Source of the DNA: Bacteroidota bacterium
Lineage (GTDB): Bacteria; Bacteroidota; Bacteroidia; B-17B0; Aurantibacillaceae
Direction of reading: 5' to 3'
NCBI GenBank assembly: GCA_017303905.1
Contig: JAFLBH010000001.1
Coordinates: 1 to 64,000, forward strand
Length of the DNA: 64,000 nt
Part shown: piece by piece, positions 28,779 through 36,000 of the stretch
Numbering within the stretch: position 1 is the first letter of the stretch
Layout: every line of letters starts with the position of its first letter
Notes under the pieces: model-generated
The model's database searches: none
What the model saw: only the letters and a program-made list of their open reading frames with translations
What the model was told of the DNA's origin: nothing
Program-made: the position numbers and the translations under genes

Positions 28779-28806
28779 AAGCCCGGATAAATGTCCGGGC
28801 TTTTTG
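28779..28806 (+). terminator. Rho-independent terminator of the T9SS cargo gene
   Basis: GCCCGGA (28781-28787) and TCCGGGC (28794-28800) form a 7-bp stem with a 6-nt loop, followed by TTTTTG. Confidence 0.88.
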
Positions 28807-28818
28807 TATTTTATGAGG

Positions 28819-28826
28819 TAATTTTG
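28819..28826 (+). promoter_or_regulatory. -7 box (TAATTTTG) for the PaaK-like ligase gene
   Basis: A perfect TAnnTTTG match 20 nt upstream of the ATG at 28847 and just after the preceding terminator. It should start the transcript of the ligase, acyltransferase and M48 peptidase genes. Confidence 0.5.
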
Positions 28827-28846
28827 CTAATTTGGCTGTTGTATTT

Positions 28847-30145
28847 ATGAGTTACATTCCATCCATAGAAACGAAAAGTTCTTCTGAAATTAAATTATTT
28901 CAGGAGAAAAAATTACAGGAGCTTTTAAATTACTTAAACACGCACTCTAAATACTATAAAAGTTTATTTAATGCCAATTCAATCGACGTTAATTCGATTC
29001 GTTGTTTAGAGGATTTAACCAAGATTCCGGTTACAACCAAAGATGATTTATATAAATTCAACTCCGACTTTATTTGTGTGGATGCGGAAAAAATTATTGA
29101 TTATGTAACCACAAGCGGTACTTTAGGTGACCCTCTGACTTTTGCTTTAACGGATAAAGATTTAGAACGATTAGCTTATAACGAACGTATTTCTTTAGAA
29201 TGCGCCGGAGGAACCAGCAAAGACATTTATCAATTAATGACAACCCTAGACCGCCGTTTTATGGCGGGACTTGCCTACTTCATGGGCATAAAACAGATGG
29301 GTGCAGGGGTTATTAGAGTTGGTAATGGGATGCCGGAATTTCAGTGGGACACAATTAAACGCTTAAAGCCAAGCGTAGCGATTGCGGTTCCTTCATTTAT
29401 TTTAAAACTGATTGAATTTGCTGAGCAGAACAATATTGATTATAAAAAATCTTCCATAAAGAAAATTGTATGCATTGGTGAATCACTTCGCAACGAAGAT
29501 TTTAGTTTAAACACTTTAGGTCAACGTATAAAAGAAAAGTGGGATATAGAACTTTACAGTACCTATGCTTCAACTGAAATGGGTGCTGCATTTACAGAGT
29601 GTACTTCCGGCAAAGGCGGCCATCACCATCCGGAGCTTTTAATAGTTGAGTTTTTAGACGAAATCAACAAGCCTGTAAAACAAGGTGAGCCCGGTGAACT
29701 AACGGTCACCACATTGGGTGTAGAAGGTATGCCTTTACTCAGATTTAAAACAGGAGATATCTGCGCAGCACATTATGAAGCTTGCAGTTGCGGAAGAACC
29801 TCATTAAGGATCAGTCCGATTATTGGGCGAAAACAACACATGATTAAATTTAAAGGGACTACCTTATACCCGCCTTCACTCTATGATATTTTAAACAACG
29901 TACCATATATAAAAAATTACATTGTTGAAGTTTTCACTAATGATATCGGGACGGATGAAATCAGTATCACCATTGGTGTTAACTCAACTCCTCCTAACTT
30001 TGAGAAAGAATTAAAAGACCACTTCAGAGCTAAATTAAGAGTGGCGCCAAATATCAAAACGGATAATCCTGAGAATATTACTAAAAAACAATTTCCTGAA
30101 ATGAGCCGTAAAGCCATTACGTTTTTTGATTACAGAAAAAAATAA
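28847..30145 (+). CDS. PaaK-like AMP-forming acyl-CoA ligase
   Basis: A 432-residue adenylate-forming enzyme of the phenylacetate-CoA ligase (PaaK) branch. The nucleotide loop is VTTSGTLGDPLTFALT near residue 83. YASTEMGAAFTEC is the adenine-binding motif, and LLRFKTGDIC and GRKQHMIKFKGTTLYP mark the C-terminal lid. PaaK-type enzymes activate aromatic or other acids with ATP and CoA. No ring-hydroxylating paaABC genes are nearby, so phenylacetate is not a safe substrate call. I chose the ATG at 28847 over an in-frame TTG at 28832, since it follows a -7 box. The acyltransferase gene starts 3 nt after the stop, which suggests that this ligase feeds it. Confidence 0.82.
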   Translation: MSYIPSIETKSSSEIKLFQEKKLQELLNYLNTHSKYYKSLFNANSIDVNSIRCLEDLTKIPVTTKDDLYKFNSDFICVDAEKIIDYVTTSGTLGDPLTFALTDKDLERLAYNERISLECAGGTSKDIYQLMTTLDRRFMAGLAYFMGIKQMGAGVIRVGNGMPEFQWDTIKRLKPSVAIAVPSFILKLIEFAEQNNIDYKKSSIKKIVCIGESLRNEDFSLNTLGQRIKEKWDIELYSTYASTEMGAAFTECTSGKGGHHHPELLIVEFLDEINKPVKQGEPGELTVTTLGVEGMPLLRFKTGDICAAHYEACSCGRTSLRISPIIGRKQHMIKFKGTTLYPPSLYDILNNVPYIKNYIVEVFTNDIGTDEISITIGVNSTPPNFEKELKDHFRAKLRVAPNIKTDNPENITKKQFPEMSRKAITFFDYRKK

Positions 30146-30148
30146 AAC

Positions 30149-31330
30149 ATGATAATGAGAGAATTCAAGGTTGAAAAGCCTTCACATATATCAGACTTTG
30201 CAAAGGAGTTTAATTTTGAGGAACTAAGACCTTATTATGATACTGAAGTAGAATCGGTGATGCAAAAAATGGCGCAAAACCCCACTTACTTTTCTTTAAT
30301 GAAATATTTGTGGCCTGAAATGAGTGAGTCACAGGCCCGAGAAAAAGCTATCGCTACAAAAAATGTACGCGATTTTCAGGCGGGATATATGTCGCATGCC
30401 ATTTGGCACATCGTTAAAGAATCATCAAAAGGTTTAACCTGGAGCGGTATTGATAAGCTCGATAAAAACAAAGCTTACTTATTCGTTGCTAACCATCGTG
30501 ATATTTTACTGGACAGTGCCATTCTTCAAATCATATTGGAAAAAGAAGGTTTCTCCACATCTGAAATCACATTTGGTTCCAATTTAATGGACAATGGCTT
30601 TATTACTGATTTTGGTAGGCTAAACAGAATGTTCACTGTAAAACGCGAGGGAAATGCGAAAGAGCTTTATGATATATCGCGACAATTAAGTGCTTATATC
30701 AGGCATACCATACTCGATAAAAATGTCAGTGTGTGGATAGCTCAAAGAAACGGAAGAACAAAAGACGGAAATGATCTCACACAAACAGGCTTGCTTAAAA
30801 TGCTTGGATTAAGTGGCGGCAAAGATTTTGTAAAGTGCTTTTCCGACTTAAATATTGTTCCGTTAAGCATTAGTTACGAATACGAACCCTGTGATTATTT
30901 AAAAGTTCAGGAGTTATATTTATCATCACTTCATAGTAAATATGTAAAAGCGCCGGGAGAAGATTTAAATAGTATTATCACCGGTATCAAACAACCAAAA
31001 GGAAAAATACATTTAGCATTTGGCAAAGTGATTCAAGAAGAATTACCGGAAATAAACAAATCGGGTAACGATAATGAAAAGATAAAACAATTAACCGCAC
31101 TAATTGATAAGCAAATTCACAACGATTTTCAATTAAATCCTGTGAATTATGTTGCATATGACTTATCGTTTCAAACCAATGTTTTTAAGAACAATTATAC
31201 GTTAGAAGAAAAAGCAAACTTTGAAAAGTACGTAGCTGAAAAAACAAGCAATTTAAGCGGAGAACAGGAGGTTCTAAAGTCCATGTTTTATAAAATGTAT
31301 GCCTATCCGGTTGCAAACAAACTCTATTAA
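30149..31330 (+). CDS. PlsC-like glycerolipid acyltransferase
   Basis: A 393-residue acyltransferase of the 1-acyl-glycerol-3-phosphate acyltransferase superfamily. The catalytic block is VANHRDILLDSAIL near residue 114, in which the His and Asp are five residues apart rather than four; NHRD is shared with a Bacteroidota subgroup. Later blocks include NRMFTVKREGN, SVWIAQRNGRTKDGNDLTQTGLLKML (seen as two shorter blocks) and VPLSISYEYEPCDYL. It probably acylates a lipid at the membrane. It starts 3 nt after the ligase stop and overlaps the M48 gene by up to 32 nt, so the three genes are one operon. Confidence 0.8.
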   Translation: MIMREFKVEKPSHISDFAKEFNFEELRPYYDTEVESVMQKMAQNPTYFSLMKYLWPEMSESQAREKAIATKNVRDFQAGYMSHAIWHIVKESSKGLTWSGIDKLDKNKAYLFVANHRDILLDSAILQIILEKEGFSTSEITFGSNLMDNGFITDFGRLNRMFTVKREGNAKELYDISRQLSAYIRHTILDKNVSVWIAQRNGRTKDGNDLTQTGLLKMLGLSGGKDFVKCFSDLNIVPLSISYEYEPCDYLKVQELYLSSLHSKYVKAPGEDLNSIITGIKQPKGKIHLAFGKVIQEELPEINKSGNDNEKIKQLTALIDKQIHNDFQLNPVNYVAYDLSFQTNVFKNNYTLEEKANFEKYVAEKTSNLSGEQEVLKSMFYKMYAYPVANKLY

Positions 31331-33536
31331 CATAAAATTGAGTAAAGTATTTTATATTTTTCTGTTATGCGTATTGTTGGGTAAACTAAATGGACAATAC
31401 AATAAAGATTTTGAAAAAAATTATACTCCTCTAATTTCAAAAGGAAACTTACCTAAAGAACTTAACTTAATTGCTTTTGAAAAAGCAAAAAACTTAACAG
31501 ATACGCTCAACCCAAAGGCTCAAAATCATAAGATAAATAAAGATTTTTATACATTAACTACCTTTAGTGAAGATGAGATATTAAAGTCTGGTAATGTTTT
31601 ATACAATACCGAAGTAAACGATTATATAAATAAAATTGCCGATGTTTTATTGCAAAACGAACCCGTATTAAAAAGCAAACTGAAATTTTACGTACTTCGT
31701 GAAAACCTTTCAAATGCCTTTGCCTGGGACAACGGTCATATATATATAAGTCTTGACTACATAGCACGCTATAACACGGAAGCGCAGCTGGCAATGACGT
31801 TAAGTCATGAAATTATTCATTATCTGAAAAGCCATCAGTATTCAGGTTATCGAAAAAGAAATGAAATCATAAAGCAATTGAGTGGGAAATTGAATAATGA
31901 CACTATTTGGAAACAAGAACGTGAATTTAGTAAAGCACAGGAATCAGAGGCCGACATGGAGGGTTTCGAACTTCTTAAAAAATCGGGATACAATACGAAT
32001 GGAATTCCTGAAAAATTTGATTTAATGCTCCTCAGTGATTACTCATTCGAAAATACACCTTTTGAAACTGACTATTTTAACAATCAATATCTAAAAATTA
32101 ATCCCGCCATTTTCTACCAAGAAGTAAAACCCGTTAACATAGATGCAAACTATGACGACACATGGGACACACACCCTAACATTTACAAAAGAAAGAAAGC
32201 TATTGAAGAAAAAATATCCTCGCAAATAAACACGGAAGGAAAGGATTTTATTGTAAGTAAGGATGAATTTTACAGAGTTCGGGATATTTGTCGATTCGAA
32301 ACAATTTTATGCAACATAAAGGATTTTGAATTAGAAACATGTGTATATCATTGTTATTGCCTGCTAAAAAAATACCCTCAGAATATTTTTTTAAAAAATA
32401 TTATTGCTGAAGTGTTTTATCAGATAGCTGTCTATAAATCGTATCGTGATATAAACGGCGGTGTTTTCGATTATATCAACTTAAAAGATAATGACAAAAC
32501 AAACTCTAACAGAGACTCAACAATGGGGCACGTTGCGCAAACCAAAAAAATGTTTGAAAGACTGAATGGAGAAGACTTTTTGCTGTTGGCGATAAATCAA
32601 AATTATAAGCTATATAAAGAAAGTAATTTTTCTGAACAACAACTCAAAACCAATTTAGACACATTGTTTAATATTCTAAGCAAAGTTCATAATTTGAATT
32701 ACCGTGACTTTCATAAAAACGAAACAGAATACAACCAGCGAACCATATATGTTAATGATTCTATCAGTAAAAACAGAAAGTTTGTTGATGCTATTTATCG
32801 GCAGAGTGCCTTTATTCACTATATGAATGACAAAGAATTCATTTCCTTTTTTAAAGACACTAGTTCGGTAAACGAATTTGGGTTAAAATATATCTCAAAA
32901 GGAAGGTTAGGGAAAATACCAGACCCTGATATCAAGTATAAAAAATACACCGCCTATAATAAGGAGGAGATAAAAAAAATAAGTAAAATTATAATGCTGG
33001 ATCCTTATTTTGAAAAAGAAATGTATAAGATTCAAGATGTAGAAAGTTTCCCTATCGATGCATATAACAATGCTATTTACTTTAAAACCGAATTAACCAA
33101 GGCTTTTGAAAAAGAAAAAGTCCAAGTTTTCCATATAAACGATTCCCGTTTTGACACAAGTGAAACCGAAAAGTATAATCACGTGGCATTGATTAACAAT
33201 ATAATCAGTGAAAATGATATGCACTACAAATTATCATCAATGCGAACATTTGCCACAAAATCAGAAGGGGTGATTGAAACTAAATACGGCACGCCTTATG
33301 TTGTACAAGTAACAGCCAATGAAACAATATACGACAATGTGATCTTTTTAGTAAATGGGATTAAAGTACTAAGAGATATTAAAATGTTTGAATATTGTAT
33401 GGATATTGTTAACGTTGAGAAAGGAATCACTGTATATCGTATTTCATTGGAGCAGTCAAGAAAAGTTACCGAAGAAGAATTAAAAATTCAAATCGACTCT
33501 GATATTAAAAACATACTTACCATAAAAAACAATTAA
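31299..33536 (+). CDS. Secreted M48-family zinc metallopeptidase
   Basis: A 745-residue exported protein with an M48 peptidase domain near residues 95-300. The zinc motif is HEIIH at 170-174, and the third ligand lies in AQESEADMEGF about 45 residues later. A hydrophobic signal (KVFYIFLLCVLLGKLNGQ) is preceded by 13 residues that overlap the acyltransferase gene, so a TTG at 31338 may be the real start and would place the signal at the extreme N-terminus. The C-terminal ~430 residues are unlike M48 domains that I know and look alpha/beta with no repeats. It may act in outer-membrane quality control, like BepA or LoiP, but that is inference. The next gene starts 8 nt downstream. Confidence 0.8.
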   Translation: MPIRLQTNSINIKLSKVFYIFLLCVLLGKLNGQYNKDFEKNYTPLISKGNLPKELNLIAFEKAKNLTDTLNPKAQNHKINKDFYTLTTFSEDEILKSGNVLYNTEVNDYINKIADVLLQNEPVLKSKLKFYVLRENLSNAFAWDNGHIYISLDYIARYNTEAQLAMTLSHEIIHYLKSHQYSGYRKRNEIIKQLSGKLNNDTIWKQEREFSKAQESEADMEGFELLKKSGYNTNGIPEKFDLMLLSDYSFENTPFETDYFNNQYLKINPAIFYQEVKPVNIDANYDDTWDTHPNIYKRKKAIEEKISSQINTEGKDFIVSKDEFYRVRDICRFETILCNIKDFELETCVYHCYCLLKKYPQNIFLKNIIAEVFYQIAVYKSYRDINGGVFDYINLKDNDKTNSNRDSTMGHVAQTKKMFERLNGEDFLLLAINQNYKLYKESNFSEQQLKTNLDTLFNILSKVHNLNYRDFHKNETEYNQRTIYVNDSISKNRKFVDAIYRQSAFIHYMNDKEFISFFKDTSSVNEFGLKYISKGRLGKIPDPDIKYKKYTAYNKEEIKKISKIIMLDPYFEKEMYKIQDVESFPIDAYNNAIYFKTELTKAFEKEKVQVFHINDSRFDTSETEKYNHVALINNIISENDMHYKLSSMRTFATKSEGVIETKYGTPYVVQVTANETIYDNVIFLVNGIKVLRDIKMFEYCMDIVNVEKGITVYRISLEQSRKVTEEELKIQIDSDIKNILTIKNN

Positions 33537-33543
33537 TACAGCT

Positions 33544-34350
33544 ATGAAAAAAATGGTATCCTTAATAGTGCTTATTACTTCATGCAGTTTGTTTTCTCAA
33601 ATTAATTTAGCAGATTTCAAAACAGTTTATTACCAGGAAGTATCTTATGAGAATGAAGACTATAAACTCTTTATAGTACGTTCATTTTCTACGATTGAAG
33701 CCGTAAAAATAAAACTAAGAGTTTTCAATAAAACTAAGGATATTTTATTGATCAAGCCCAACGAACTCCTTTTCAATATTAAGGGAAAGACGTACACAGG
33801 AAATGGCAAACCCCTGATTATACAACCGGATGGGGCAGATGATAAAGTTATTGATGTAATCGATGAGAAAAACAATATGAAGTGTGAAGAATTTGAACTG
33901 ACGTTGAATGGTTTTTACAAAGTACCAATGGAATCAGAAGTATATCTAATCTCCAATACTTTGTTGCCACCGGAACGGAAATCAGACTTAAGCGCCGGAA
34001 GTGTTAATTGCAAACTTTTTGATTACAAAATGGACGAAGAAAAATCATTTGCAAAATATACTTGCACTTACAATGGAGATCAAATTGCTATACTCGACCC
34101 TATAAAATGCGTAGCAATAATGTCAGATGGAAAAGAAAACAAGTGTACAGTCAAAAACACTGTAACAGTGCTTGAAAACGGACAATCCGGAAACATAACA
34201 ATTGAATTTAAGCGATTAAAAGGATCCGGTGAATTAACAGACGGAATATCCATAAAATGGAATGAAACTTTTAAAATTTCAAGCCCTATTTCGTTAAAAG
34301 TCATTAAGGTACCTATGAAGATGGATCTGGAAAGATCAGAGAACAAATAA
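33544..34350 (+). CDS. Secreted two-domain protein, paralogue A (unknown)
   Basis: A 268-residue exported protein of unknown function. Residues 1-19 are a signal peptide (LIVLITSCSLFSQ). It aligns over its full length with the 270-residue product of 35141-35953: shared blocks include RVFNKT, a LxxKPxxxxFxIxGK strand pair, KVIDV, a YxCxYxGDxIxIL-type strand, TVLENG/TLLERG and KWNETFK. Within each protein the N- and C-terminal halves also look alike, as two beta-sandwich-like units. It follows the M48 peptidase gene by 8 nt and is probably cotranscribed with it. It could be an accessory or substrate-binding protein of the peptidase; that is inference. Confidence 0.72.
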   Translation: MKKMVSLIVLITSCSLFSQINLADFKTVYYQEVSYENEDYKLFIVRSFSTIEAVKIKLRVFNKTKDILLIKPNELLFNIKGKTYTGNGKPLIIQPDGADDKVIDVIDEKNNMKCEEFELTLNGFYKVPMESEVYLISNTLLPPERKSDLSAGSVNCKLFDYKMDEEKSFAKYTCTYNGDQIAILDPIKCVAIMSDGKENKCTVKNTVTVLENGQSGNITIEFKRLKGSGELTDGISIKWNETFKISSPISLKVIKVPMKMDLERSENK

Positions 34351-34396
34351 ATAATATACCCACCACACGGTATAGTTTAAAATTCAATTATATATC

Positions 34397-34404
34397 TATA
34401 TTTG
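34397..34404 (+). promoter_or_regulatory. -7 box (TATATTTG) for the 202-residue secreted protein gene
   Basis: A perfect TAnnTTTG match, with a 15-nt gap to the ATG at 34420. It suggests that this gene has its own promoter, separate from the upstream operon. Confidence 0.5.
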
Positions 34405-34419
34405 TAAAAAAACATCACC

Positions 34420-35028
34420 ATGAAAAACTTTAAAAATTTATTCGTTGCAGCCATTATGATTTTGGCATTAAACGTAAGCGCTCAAAAATGGACAGAAGGC
34501 AAAGACTTATCTTACCTAAAAGGTGAAAAAGAACTCCTTTTAAAATTCACTTATGATAACATGACTGCGGGTCGTAAAAAAGCTGAGGCAGAATATGTAA
34601 AAGAAAAAACGGAAGAGTATAACAAAAAAGAAGCCGGTAAAGGTGATAAGTGGGCAAAAGACTGGGTAGAAAACCGTGCAGGTATCTACGAACCAAAATT
34701 TGAAGAATTATTCAATAAAGAATCTGGAGATATCGCTTGCGATCGTAACAAAACAAGTGCAAAATACACTTTAATTGTTCATACAGTTCGTATGGAGCCG
34801 GGTTGGAATATCGGGATTTCTAAAATGCCGGCGTCTTGTGATTTCGAAGTAATGATTGTTGAAACCGCTAATCCAAGTGTTGTAAAATCAAAAGGTATGA
34901 TGTACAATATTCCGGGTTCTCAATATGGCGGATTCGATTTCGAAGTAGCTGTTCGTATTAAAGAGTGTTATGCTAAAGCAGGTAAAGATTTAGGCAAAAA
35001 ATTAGGTAAAGCCGCTAAATCAAAATAA
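34420..35028 (+). CDS. Small secreted protein of unknown function
   Basis: A 202-residue exported protein. The signal peptide ends after LNVSAQ (about residue 22). The mature part begins with a charged, helical, Lys/Glu-rich segment (about residues 35-80), followed by a beta-rich half containing KYTLIVHTVRMEPGWNIG, a single-Cys strand and a GGFDFEVAVRIKECYAKAG tail with a Lys-rich end. I do not recognise a named family. It lies between the two paralogous secreted genes and has its own -7 box and a strong terminator, so it may be expressed at a high level. Codon choice looks regular (many GTA, GCT, AAA), consistent with good expression. Confidence 0.7.
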   Translation: MKNFKNLFVAAIMILALNVSAQKWTEGKDLSYLKGEKELLLKFTYDNMTAGRKKAEAEYVKEKTEEYNKKEAGKGDKWAKDWVENRAGIYEPKFEELFNKESGDIACDRNKTSAKYTLIVHTVRMEPGWNIGISKMPASCDFEVMIVETANPSVVKSKGMMYNIPGSQYGGFDFEVAVRIKECYAKAGKDLGKKLGKAAKSK

Positions 35029-35048
35029 CATCTTTTCTATTATCTATT

Positions 35049-35076
35049 TAAAACCCCGCTTAGCGGGGTTTTTTTA
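35049..35076 (+). terminator. Rho-independent terminator
   Basis: AAACCCCGCT and AGCGGGGTTT form a 10-bp perfect stem with a minimal loop, followed by a run of Ts. It ends the transcript of the 202-residue secreted protein gene. Confidence 0.88.
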
Positions 35077-35140
35077 TTAAAAATTGTTTAAATACAGATT
35101 ATATAAATCATTCTTACTAAATTTATTGTAAAATAATATT

Positions 35141-35953
35141 ATGAAAAAACTTTTTAGTCTTTCACTGATTATCTGTTCAACTTTAATTTTCGCGCAGAAA
35201 AAAAAGAATGTTGATCCGGGTTACAAATACATTTACAAGGAAACTTCTTTTGAAACGGATGATTATAAAATTTACATCGAGGATGCTACCGCTATCGATG
35301 CATGGAGCAAATTTAAAGTGAGAGTATTTAATAAAACAAACGACTACCTCATCTTAAAACCAACGGATATTACTTTCAAAATTGACGGGAAAGAAATTCA
35401 AGGAACCGATAAACAACTTATCATTGTTCCTAACGACGAAGCCAGTAAAGTTATTGATGTAAAAGGTAAAGGATGCCAGGTAGACAACTATTCAGTCACC
35501 ATTAAAACGCTTTATAAAGTGGCGGCTAATTCGCCGGCTCTAAAAGCAGAAGATTTCGTGATTCCGGTTGCAAAAAATGATTTCAAAGCCGGTAATTTCA
35601 AATGCACACTGAAAAAGCACGAATTAAAAACCGATAAATCTCTTTTTAAATTTGTTTGTCAATACGAAGGTGACGGAATAGGAATTCTAGCTCCTACACA
35701 AATCTCTGCTGTAACTCCAAAAGAACAAGACAATGCGAATTATAACCGCAATAAGGGAACCTTATTAGAGCGCGGTAAGTCGGATGATTTTATTGTTGAT
35801 ATCAGAGAAATACCAAATTCAGGCGATATGCAAAAAGAACCATGGAAATTAAAATGGAACGAAACGTTTAAAGAATCAAAAATAGAAATGATATCAGGCG
35901 GCAACATCAACCTCGAACTCGATCCGGCTAAAACAGCAGAAAAAAACAAATAG
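35141..35953 (+). CDS. Secreted two-domain protein, paralogue B (unknown)
   Basis: A 270-residue exported protein, paralogous to the 33544-34350 product (see that entry for shared blocks). The signal peptide ends after TLIFAQ, followed by a short KKKN stretch. First half: DDYKIYIEDA, KVRVFNKTNDYLILKP, KVIDVKGKG. Second half: FKFVCQYEGDGIGILAP, TLLERGKSDDF, KLKWNETFKES. A Cys pair is placed much as in paralogue A (one near each half), which may form a disulfide. No known domain is recognised. It is transcribed alone, between two terminators. Confidence 0.72.
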   Translation: MKKLFSLSLIICSTLIFAQKKKNVDPGYKYIYKETSFETDDYKIYIEDATAIDAWSKFKVRVFNKTNDYLILKPTDITFKIDGKEIQGTDKQLIIVPNDEASKVIDVKGKGCQVDNYSVTIKTLYKVAANSPALKAEDFVIPVAKNDFKAGNFKCTLKKHELKTDKSLFKFVCQYEGDGIGILAPTQISAVTPKEQDNANYNRNKGTLLERGKSDDFIVDIREIPNSGDMQKEPWKLKWNETFKESKIEMISGGNINLELDPAKTAEKNK

Positions 35954-35971
35954 AGAATTGCTTAAACAAAA

Positions 35972-36000
35972 AAAATCCCGCTTAATGGCGGGATTTTTTT
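35972..36000. terminator. Bidirectional terminator shared with gatA
   Basis: AAATCCCGC (35974-35982) and GCGGGATTT (35989-35997) flank a short TTAATG loop, with a run of Ts on the plus-strand side and a run of Ts on the minus-strand side. It ends the paralogue B gene; on the minus strand it starts inside the gatA stop codon region (gatA ends at 35999). Confidence 0.82.

Follow-up and report, generated by a model that had tools for sequence, protein, structure and literature searches.

Most of what is known about envelope M48 proteases comes from studies of single clients in Escherichia coli. In that organism, according to excerpts of two papers, BepA (YfgC) aids the maturation of the barrel protein LptD or degrades stalled LptD (PMC8423444, PMC7950410). 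The outer-membrane assembly machine of Bacteroidota is described, again in excerpts, as unlike that of E. coli (PMC12611786, PMC12578637), and the words "BepA", "peptidase", and "M48" do not occur in the excerpts of these two reports. Here we analyze a 64,000-nucleotide stretch of a Bacteroidota genome (assembly GCA_017303905.1, contig JAFLBH010000001.1, positions 1 to 64,000; class Bacteroidia, family Aurantibacillaceae), called the window below. In it, a gene for a probable BepA-like M48 peptidase is directly followed by a gene, A, for a two-domain and probably secreted protein, whose paralogue B lies nearby. In most examined relatives, the position after M48 is held by a gene, c1, for a small outer-membrane-barrel-like protein. 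We tentatively propose that the peptidase is an envelope protease whose dedicated partner or client can be exchanged and that A stands in the barrel's slot, a reading we regard as quite possible.

The M48 product is probably a BepA-like zinc metallopeptidase with intact catalytic residues, which would be exported and act in the envelope or periplasm. It scores 50.5 bits against Pfam Peptidase_M48 (PF01435; cut-off 20.3) and shares with BepA the M48 domain, the HExxH zinc motif, and the third-ligand glutamate; residues H170, E171, H174, E215, and H292 are invariant in a 26-row alignment of relatives (A4). When solved structures were searched with the A4 profile, BepA (6ait) was the top match (E 9e-16). 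The regulatory His-246 of BepA may correspond to the later invariant histidine of the window M48. The window M48 differs from BepA in several respects: it reaches only 50.6 bits against the NCBIfam BepA equivalog model NF052400, for which the cut-off is 570; its 745 residues include a long C-terminal region of unassigned fold; and it is encoded beside its presumed partner. It may also lack the C-terminal TPR domain of BepA: no TPR family is found among the Pfam matches of 26 M48 members at E 0.1.

Homologs were searched for in 87 genomes of the window's own family and in a sample of 395 genomes of its class. The fetched loci hold 91 M48 frames at E 1e-4, all distinct, and the 53 scoring above 480 are called full-length. 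Thirty of these represent all 29 family genomes past the E 1e-45 line, and 23 come from 20 class regions picked among the strongest of 98 class genomes; because the class part was drawn from the strongest matches, the sample leans to near kin. The profiles c3 and c4 were built on own-family members. Genes were called with a simple ORF picker (at least 50 residues), which leaves some starts wrong and may have missed short or overlapping genes.

Directly downstream and on the same strand of the 53 full-length M48 genes, c1 is found 38 times (23/30 in the own family and 15/23 in other families), X202, the third gene in the row from M48 to B, twice (G274 and G325; loci L277 and L283), and A once, in the window. 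An acyltransferase gene on the opposite strand takes the slot in two cases; in the remaining 10, the M48 is followed by some other gene, by a second M48, or by the end of the contig. Within 5 kb, c1 accompanies 43 of the 53. Its products are about 270 residues long, and 44 of 57 have F as their last residue. Outer-membrane barrels usually end in F, and c1 is accordingly barrel-like by this mark. A tie to barrels like that of BepA is seen in these relatives by gene neighborhood only; a BepA-like protease with an adjoining barrel-like gene suggests a protease-client pair. Four genomes of the window's genus (G054, G055, G056, and G058) show the row c12-M48-c1 beside the acyltransferase gene. The c12 products (L133:7866-9533 and relatives) have about 556 residues and no Pfam match; in many genomes their genes immediately precede M48, and 17 of the 53 full-length M48 genes have a c12-like gene within 5 kb. 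Neither c1 nor c12 has a match in the window's genome.

Two further arrangements were seen among the relatives. In G050 (L137:5872-13673), a tandem M48 pair with c12 upstream is followed by four successive barrel-like c1 genes. In G057 (L132:5691-7759), the M48 is split into two frames of 469 and 221 residues between B and an amidase gene and has the look of a decayed copy; no c1 match was found in this genome.

Several features tie A to M48 in the window, whose + strand carries five genes between 30149 and 35953 (Table 1). The 3' end of the acyltransferase gene overlaps the start of the M48 ORF by 32 nt, A begins 7 nt after the M48 stop, and the two following gaps measure 69 nt (A to X202) and 112 nt (X202 to B). 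An earlier annotation from the DNA letters and their ORFs, the sequence-only reading, had given the M48-A gap as 8 nt and had placed B about 1.6 kb from A beyond a third gene; the ORFs are where it put them, and the starts of A and B are 1,597 nt apart. In the near relative G052, the DNA matches the window at 91.6% identity up to 31311 and at 90.5% from 34369, and 41 nt replace everything between (31312-34368). Because these 41 nt stand in for both genes while X202 and B remain, G052 lacks M48 and A as one unit. In G053, as in G052, X202 comes immediately after the acyltransferase gene, and B is kept at the locus in both genomes. Their spacing and joint absence make M48 and A look like a single unit, and B appears to share the locus without being part of that unit. 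A is most likely the M48 partner because it fills the barrel slot and is present or absent together with M48, an argument from gene order.

Table 1. Features of the locus (positions in the window).
Feature	Position	Strand	Evidence or remark
AMP-binding enzyme (adenylate-forming)	28832..30145	+	PF00501, E 1.4e-12; TAnnTTTG at 28819
Acyltransferase (PF01553)	30149..31330	+	E 1.1e-5; 25.7 bits against a cut-off of 23
BepA-like M48 zinc metallopeptidase (probable), 745 residues, predicted exported	31299..33536	+	PF01435; BepA 6ait is the best solved match
Segment of 3,057 bases that covers A entirely and M48 almost entirely	31312..34368	+	Missing in the near relative G052
A, two-domain protein, probably secreted	33544..34350	+	Paralogue of B; occupies the slot of the barrel-like gene in most examined relatives
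X202 (third gene), 202 residues, probably secreted, family without a name	34420..35028	+	TAnnTTTG at 34397
Terminator-like hairpin in the X202/B gap	35050..35072	+	Hairpin scan
B, paralogue of A, two similar predicted beta-sandwich halves, not tied to M48	35141..35953	+	Alignment; AlphaFold2 model; kept in G052 and G053
Terminator-like hairpin after B, ahead of a convergent amidase gene	35969..36000	+	Hairpin scan

The calls of export and secretion were made by eye from hydrophobic N-termini. The 28832..30145 product is presumably PaaK-like. For X202, no Pfam family scored above its cut-off and none was common to two of 11 members (alignment A5); a single-sequence model of its fold reached a mean pLDDT of 46.0 and was discarded.

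A and B are paralogues that align end to end, as the sequence-only reading had seen (35% identity over 249 columns, E 7e-46). It had not recognized their family, and profile searches agree: no Pfam or NCBIfam match lies above cut-off, and no PDB sequence match was found. B has no Pfam family at E 0.1, and the commonest among 48 members, DUF5067, occurs in two (best E 0.054). By sequence, A and B do not belong to DUF4352 and its kin, which we take to be the telokin-like families to compare. That reading had also described two similar halves in each protein and a domain duplication older than the gene duplication, and both points hold up. Profiles of the N- and C-halves (48 members) align colinearly over 94 columns at 15% identity (E 0.006), with an HHalign probability of only 6%; of 200 block-shuffled controls, two reach this score and none does so over at least 90 columns, and a reversed-profile control scores 13.2 against 20.5 for the real alignment. 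In an AlphaFold2 model of B built from eight sequences (mean pLDDT 85.6), residues 35-127 and 147-260 have a like strand order, with a one-turn helix after strand four in each. The N-half of A resembles the N-half of B far more than N-halves resemble C-halves, which places the domain duplication before the gene duplication.

The model of B gives modest support to a beta-sandwich (Ig-like) fold, the fold that the sequence-only reading had wanted checked by structure prediction, and we extend it to A by homology. Vibrio RbmA, presumably a tandem FnIII protein, heads the Foldseek list (E about 5e-5), with whole-chain TM-scores of about 0.2 and an rmsd near 20. VIA-align returned YcdA (4r4g, Z 9.6) and YjhA (3cfu, Z 8.4) of Bacillus subtilis, both of which we take to be telokin-like, over about 110 residues each; none of the three proteins has a sequence match to A or B. 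Without any relative, the best Z is usually 7 to 8; B's values lie little above this level, and the aligned ranges span both halves; the matches consequently support the fold class and no closer kinship. The absence of a family from either list does not exclude that family.

In a tree of A/B proteins, A and one protein of G067 are grouped 100/100, as sister to the group that holds B and its relatives, and the grouping was repeated in an 80-row FastTree. This G067 protein is encoded 284 bp away from an M48 gene, divergently to it, and 30 bp ahead of an X202 gene. The locus itself is variable, the fetched neighborhoods holding different genes in different relatives. The GC content of the M48-A segment (31.4% against 36.3% for the window) and its separate branch would fit a foreign insert. 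Loss in G052 and G053 would fit as well, because G067 has M48, a relative of A, and X202 together. The M48-A pair may be a newcomer, or it may be what is left of an earlier arrangement that G052 and G053 have lost.

In the mechanism we propose, the M48 protease would supervise or trim outer-membrane or surface proteins. In the Bacteroidia relatives, it would form a two-gene unit with the product of the next gene, mostly the small barrel-like protein, which is probably its client. In the window's genome, a divergent M48 would be paired with A in the slot where the barrel usually stands. A could then be a client, its maturation or turnover controlled by M48, or an adaptor that contacts M48 and delivers substrates to it; B would be an independent paralogue outside the M48-A unit. 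With A as a client, the range of the protease would extend beyond barrels. With A as an adaptor, a parallel is offered by the fusions of the A/B module to C14 peptidases described below. A wider version, in which the slot can be exchanged among the barrel, X202, and the tandem Ig-like A, whose family is elsewhere fused to a caspase-like peptidase that would be exported, and in which the Ig-like module serves unrelated envelope peptidases as a recruited recognition element, seems to us speculative and rather unlikely. With an M48 relative in 98 of the 395 class genomes (E 1e-25) and, in the loci examined, a candidate client mostly encoded next to it, the choice of clients by such proteases becomes directly testable in Bacteroidota.

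The simplest reading of the transcription signals gives three units, AMP-acyltransferase-M48-A, then X202, then B, so that M48 and A would be cotranscribed and the AMP-binding gene is the probable first gene of the unit ending with A. Terminator-like hairpins occur at 28779-28802, before the AMP-binding gene, as well as after X202 and after B; the M48-A gap has none. Intergenic matches to TAnnTTTG, the promoter element of Bacteroidota, number two: one precedes the AMP-binding gene and the other X202. A scan for promoters of the E. coli type gave 36 matches with 31.4 expected by chance, which is chance level.

Several observations weigh against the proposal. M48 is followed directly by A in one genome only: the conserved M48-A linkage that the sequence-only reading had suggested looking for in relatives was sought in the 87 family and 395 class genomes, and this order was met in the window alone. 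Of the 53 full-length M48 genes, no more than 5 come with A/B at a distance of up to 5 kb, and all five belong to the own family. The class lists (two M48 and six A/B candidates scored per genome) showed no linkage within 5 kb outside the own family, nor did the regions fetched from the class, 20 around M48 and 20 around A/B. In G067, the M48 near the divergent relative of A retains its own c1 on the other side, and the relative itself is a long branch. The window M48 is likewise a long branch in its tree, apart from the M48s of its own genus and of unsure placement, and the M48-A pair may be recent or decaying for that reason. The barrel call for c1 comes from the general rule on C-terminal F; PF13505 was found in 1 of 20 c1 members (E 0.012), and c1 has no PDB sequence match. 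The operon reading is weak: terminator-like sites number 6 against 4.0 expected, with one inside the AMP-binding gene, and TAnnTTTG has 5 matches against 3.4 expected, three of them inside genes, so that the signals stand near chance numbers. No terminator-like site separates A from X202, and transcription may read through from one into the other. Weaker M48 genes were also considered as A/B partners (38 distinct genes, score at or below 480) and set aside: A/B lies within 5 kb of four frames only, two in divergent orientation (G003 L155 and G054 L169) and the pair that makes up the split G057 L132 M48, which forms no pattern.

The scarcity of A/B near M48, together with the variable content of the locus, would be explained if the genes were incidental neighbors. 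A and B would then be general-purpose secreted beta-sandwich proteins, the 3 kb segment would merely sit at a locus permissive of gene gain and loss, and A would be irrelevant to the protease. A/B genes do stand at many different places, and the window's genome holds five copies. Against this are the 7 nt gap, the joint absence in G052 with the same order in G053, and the fact that the sole other protein grouping with A in our trees also adjoins an M48 gene; we judge incidental neighborhood to be somewhat unlikely. The AMP-binding enzyme, acyltransferase, M48, c12-like, barrel-like, X202, and A/B genes could instead belong to one larger envelope pathway with lineage-variable membership, serving for example an acylated surface component. 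An AMP-binding homolog within 5 kb of 17 of the 53 M48 genes favors this, as do combinations in six genomes of the class: AMP, X202, and M48 are close together in G274, G325, G149, and G106, and in another family of the class the orders are AMP-k7-AcT-AB-AB-X202 in G303 (X202 on the opposite strand) and AMP-k7-AcT-AB-AB in G277. The other 36 M48 genes, some of them near contig ends, have no AMP-binding gene within 5 kb, the proteins are not known to share a substrate, and the AMP-binding enzyme and acyltransferase may be ordinary lipid metabolism, which makes this pathway improbable in our view. That A and B jointly act as chaperones, inhibitors, or ligand-binding subunits of the peptidase, as the sequence-only reading had suggested from their paralogy and closeness to M48, is very improbable, since B is kept in G052 and G053 without an adjoining M48 or A, a terminator-like hairpin parts B from X202, and 14 of 35 family genomes with A/B lack a full-length M48; the M48-A link, the internal duplication, and the beta-sandwich survive from that interpretation.

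A/B was found in 35 of the 87 family genomes by single-sequence search and in 37 by profile, and in 50 of the 395 class genomes (E 1e-6). M48 and A/B occur together in 27 of the 395, against 12.4 expected; this count and those of A/B without M48 are uncorrected for shared descent, and we take the co-occurrence as a hint only. The sequence-only reading had asked whether A/B occurs without the peptidase in most genomes. It does so in fewer than half, namely in 14 of 35 in the own family (best E 1e-45 line) and in 23 of the 50 class genomes that have A/B (E 1e-25; only two M48 candidates scored per genome), figures that speak of co-occurrence and not of linkage.

The neighbors of A/B genes are diverse and include genes we take to be TrmD-like and FtsX-like (L068, L100, L107, L118, L124, L128, L140, and L142). 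Tandem A/B pairs recur across several class families with differing neighbors (L259, L261, L264-L266, and others). Loci L262, L263, L277, L283, L286, and L292 belong to other class families; there, genes of the AMP-binding, acyltransferase, X202, M48, and A/B types are again found close to each other, in combinations that differ between loci.

A second, separate tie of the A/B module to peptidases is suggested by fusions to prokaryotic caspase homologs (Peptidase_C14; metacaspases/orthocaspases). In nine examined proteins, the module lies N-terminal to a C14 domain, and a conserved His and Cys, presumably the catalytic residues, are present in 9/9; the window's A and B have no peptidase domain. 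The two fusions scanned with Pfam matched PF00656 at E 3.6e-15 and 3.1e-22. The nine are distinct proteins longer than 500 residues without stops in the fetched loci, with frames of 580-590 residues left out. Neither "Ig-like" nor "fibronectin" occurs in the main text of a 2012 survey of prokaryotic caspase homologs (PMC3501461). Among the literature matches listed, judged by title and the start of the abstract, nothing concerned an M48-barrel gene pair, A/B, or an A/B-caspase fusion. A/B is a two-domain family without a name that may now have two separate ties to peptidases. One fusion is encoded in the window's genome, outside the window (G000:C1:1335610-1336359; L126:5611-7350), and similar fusions are found elsewhere in the class, in different genera and families (L162, L163, L207, L208, and L255-L258).

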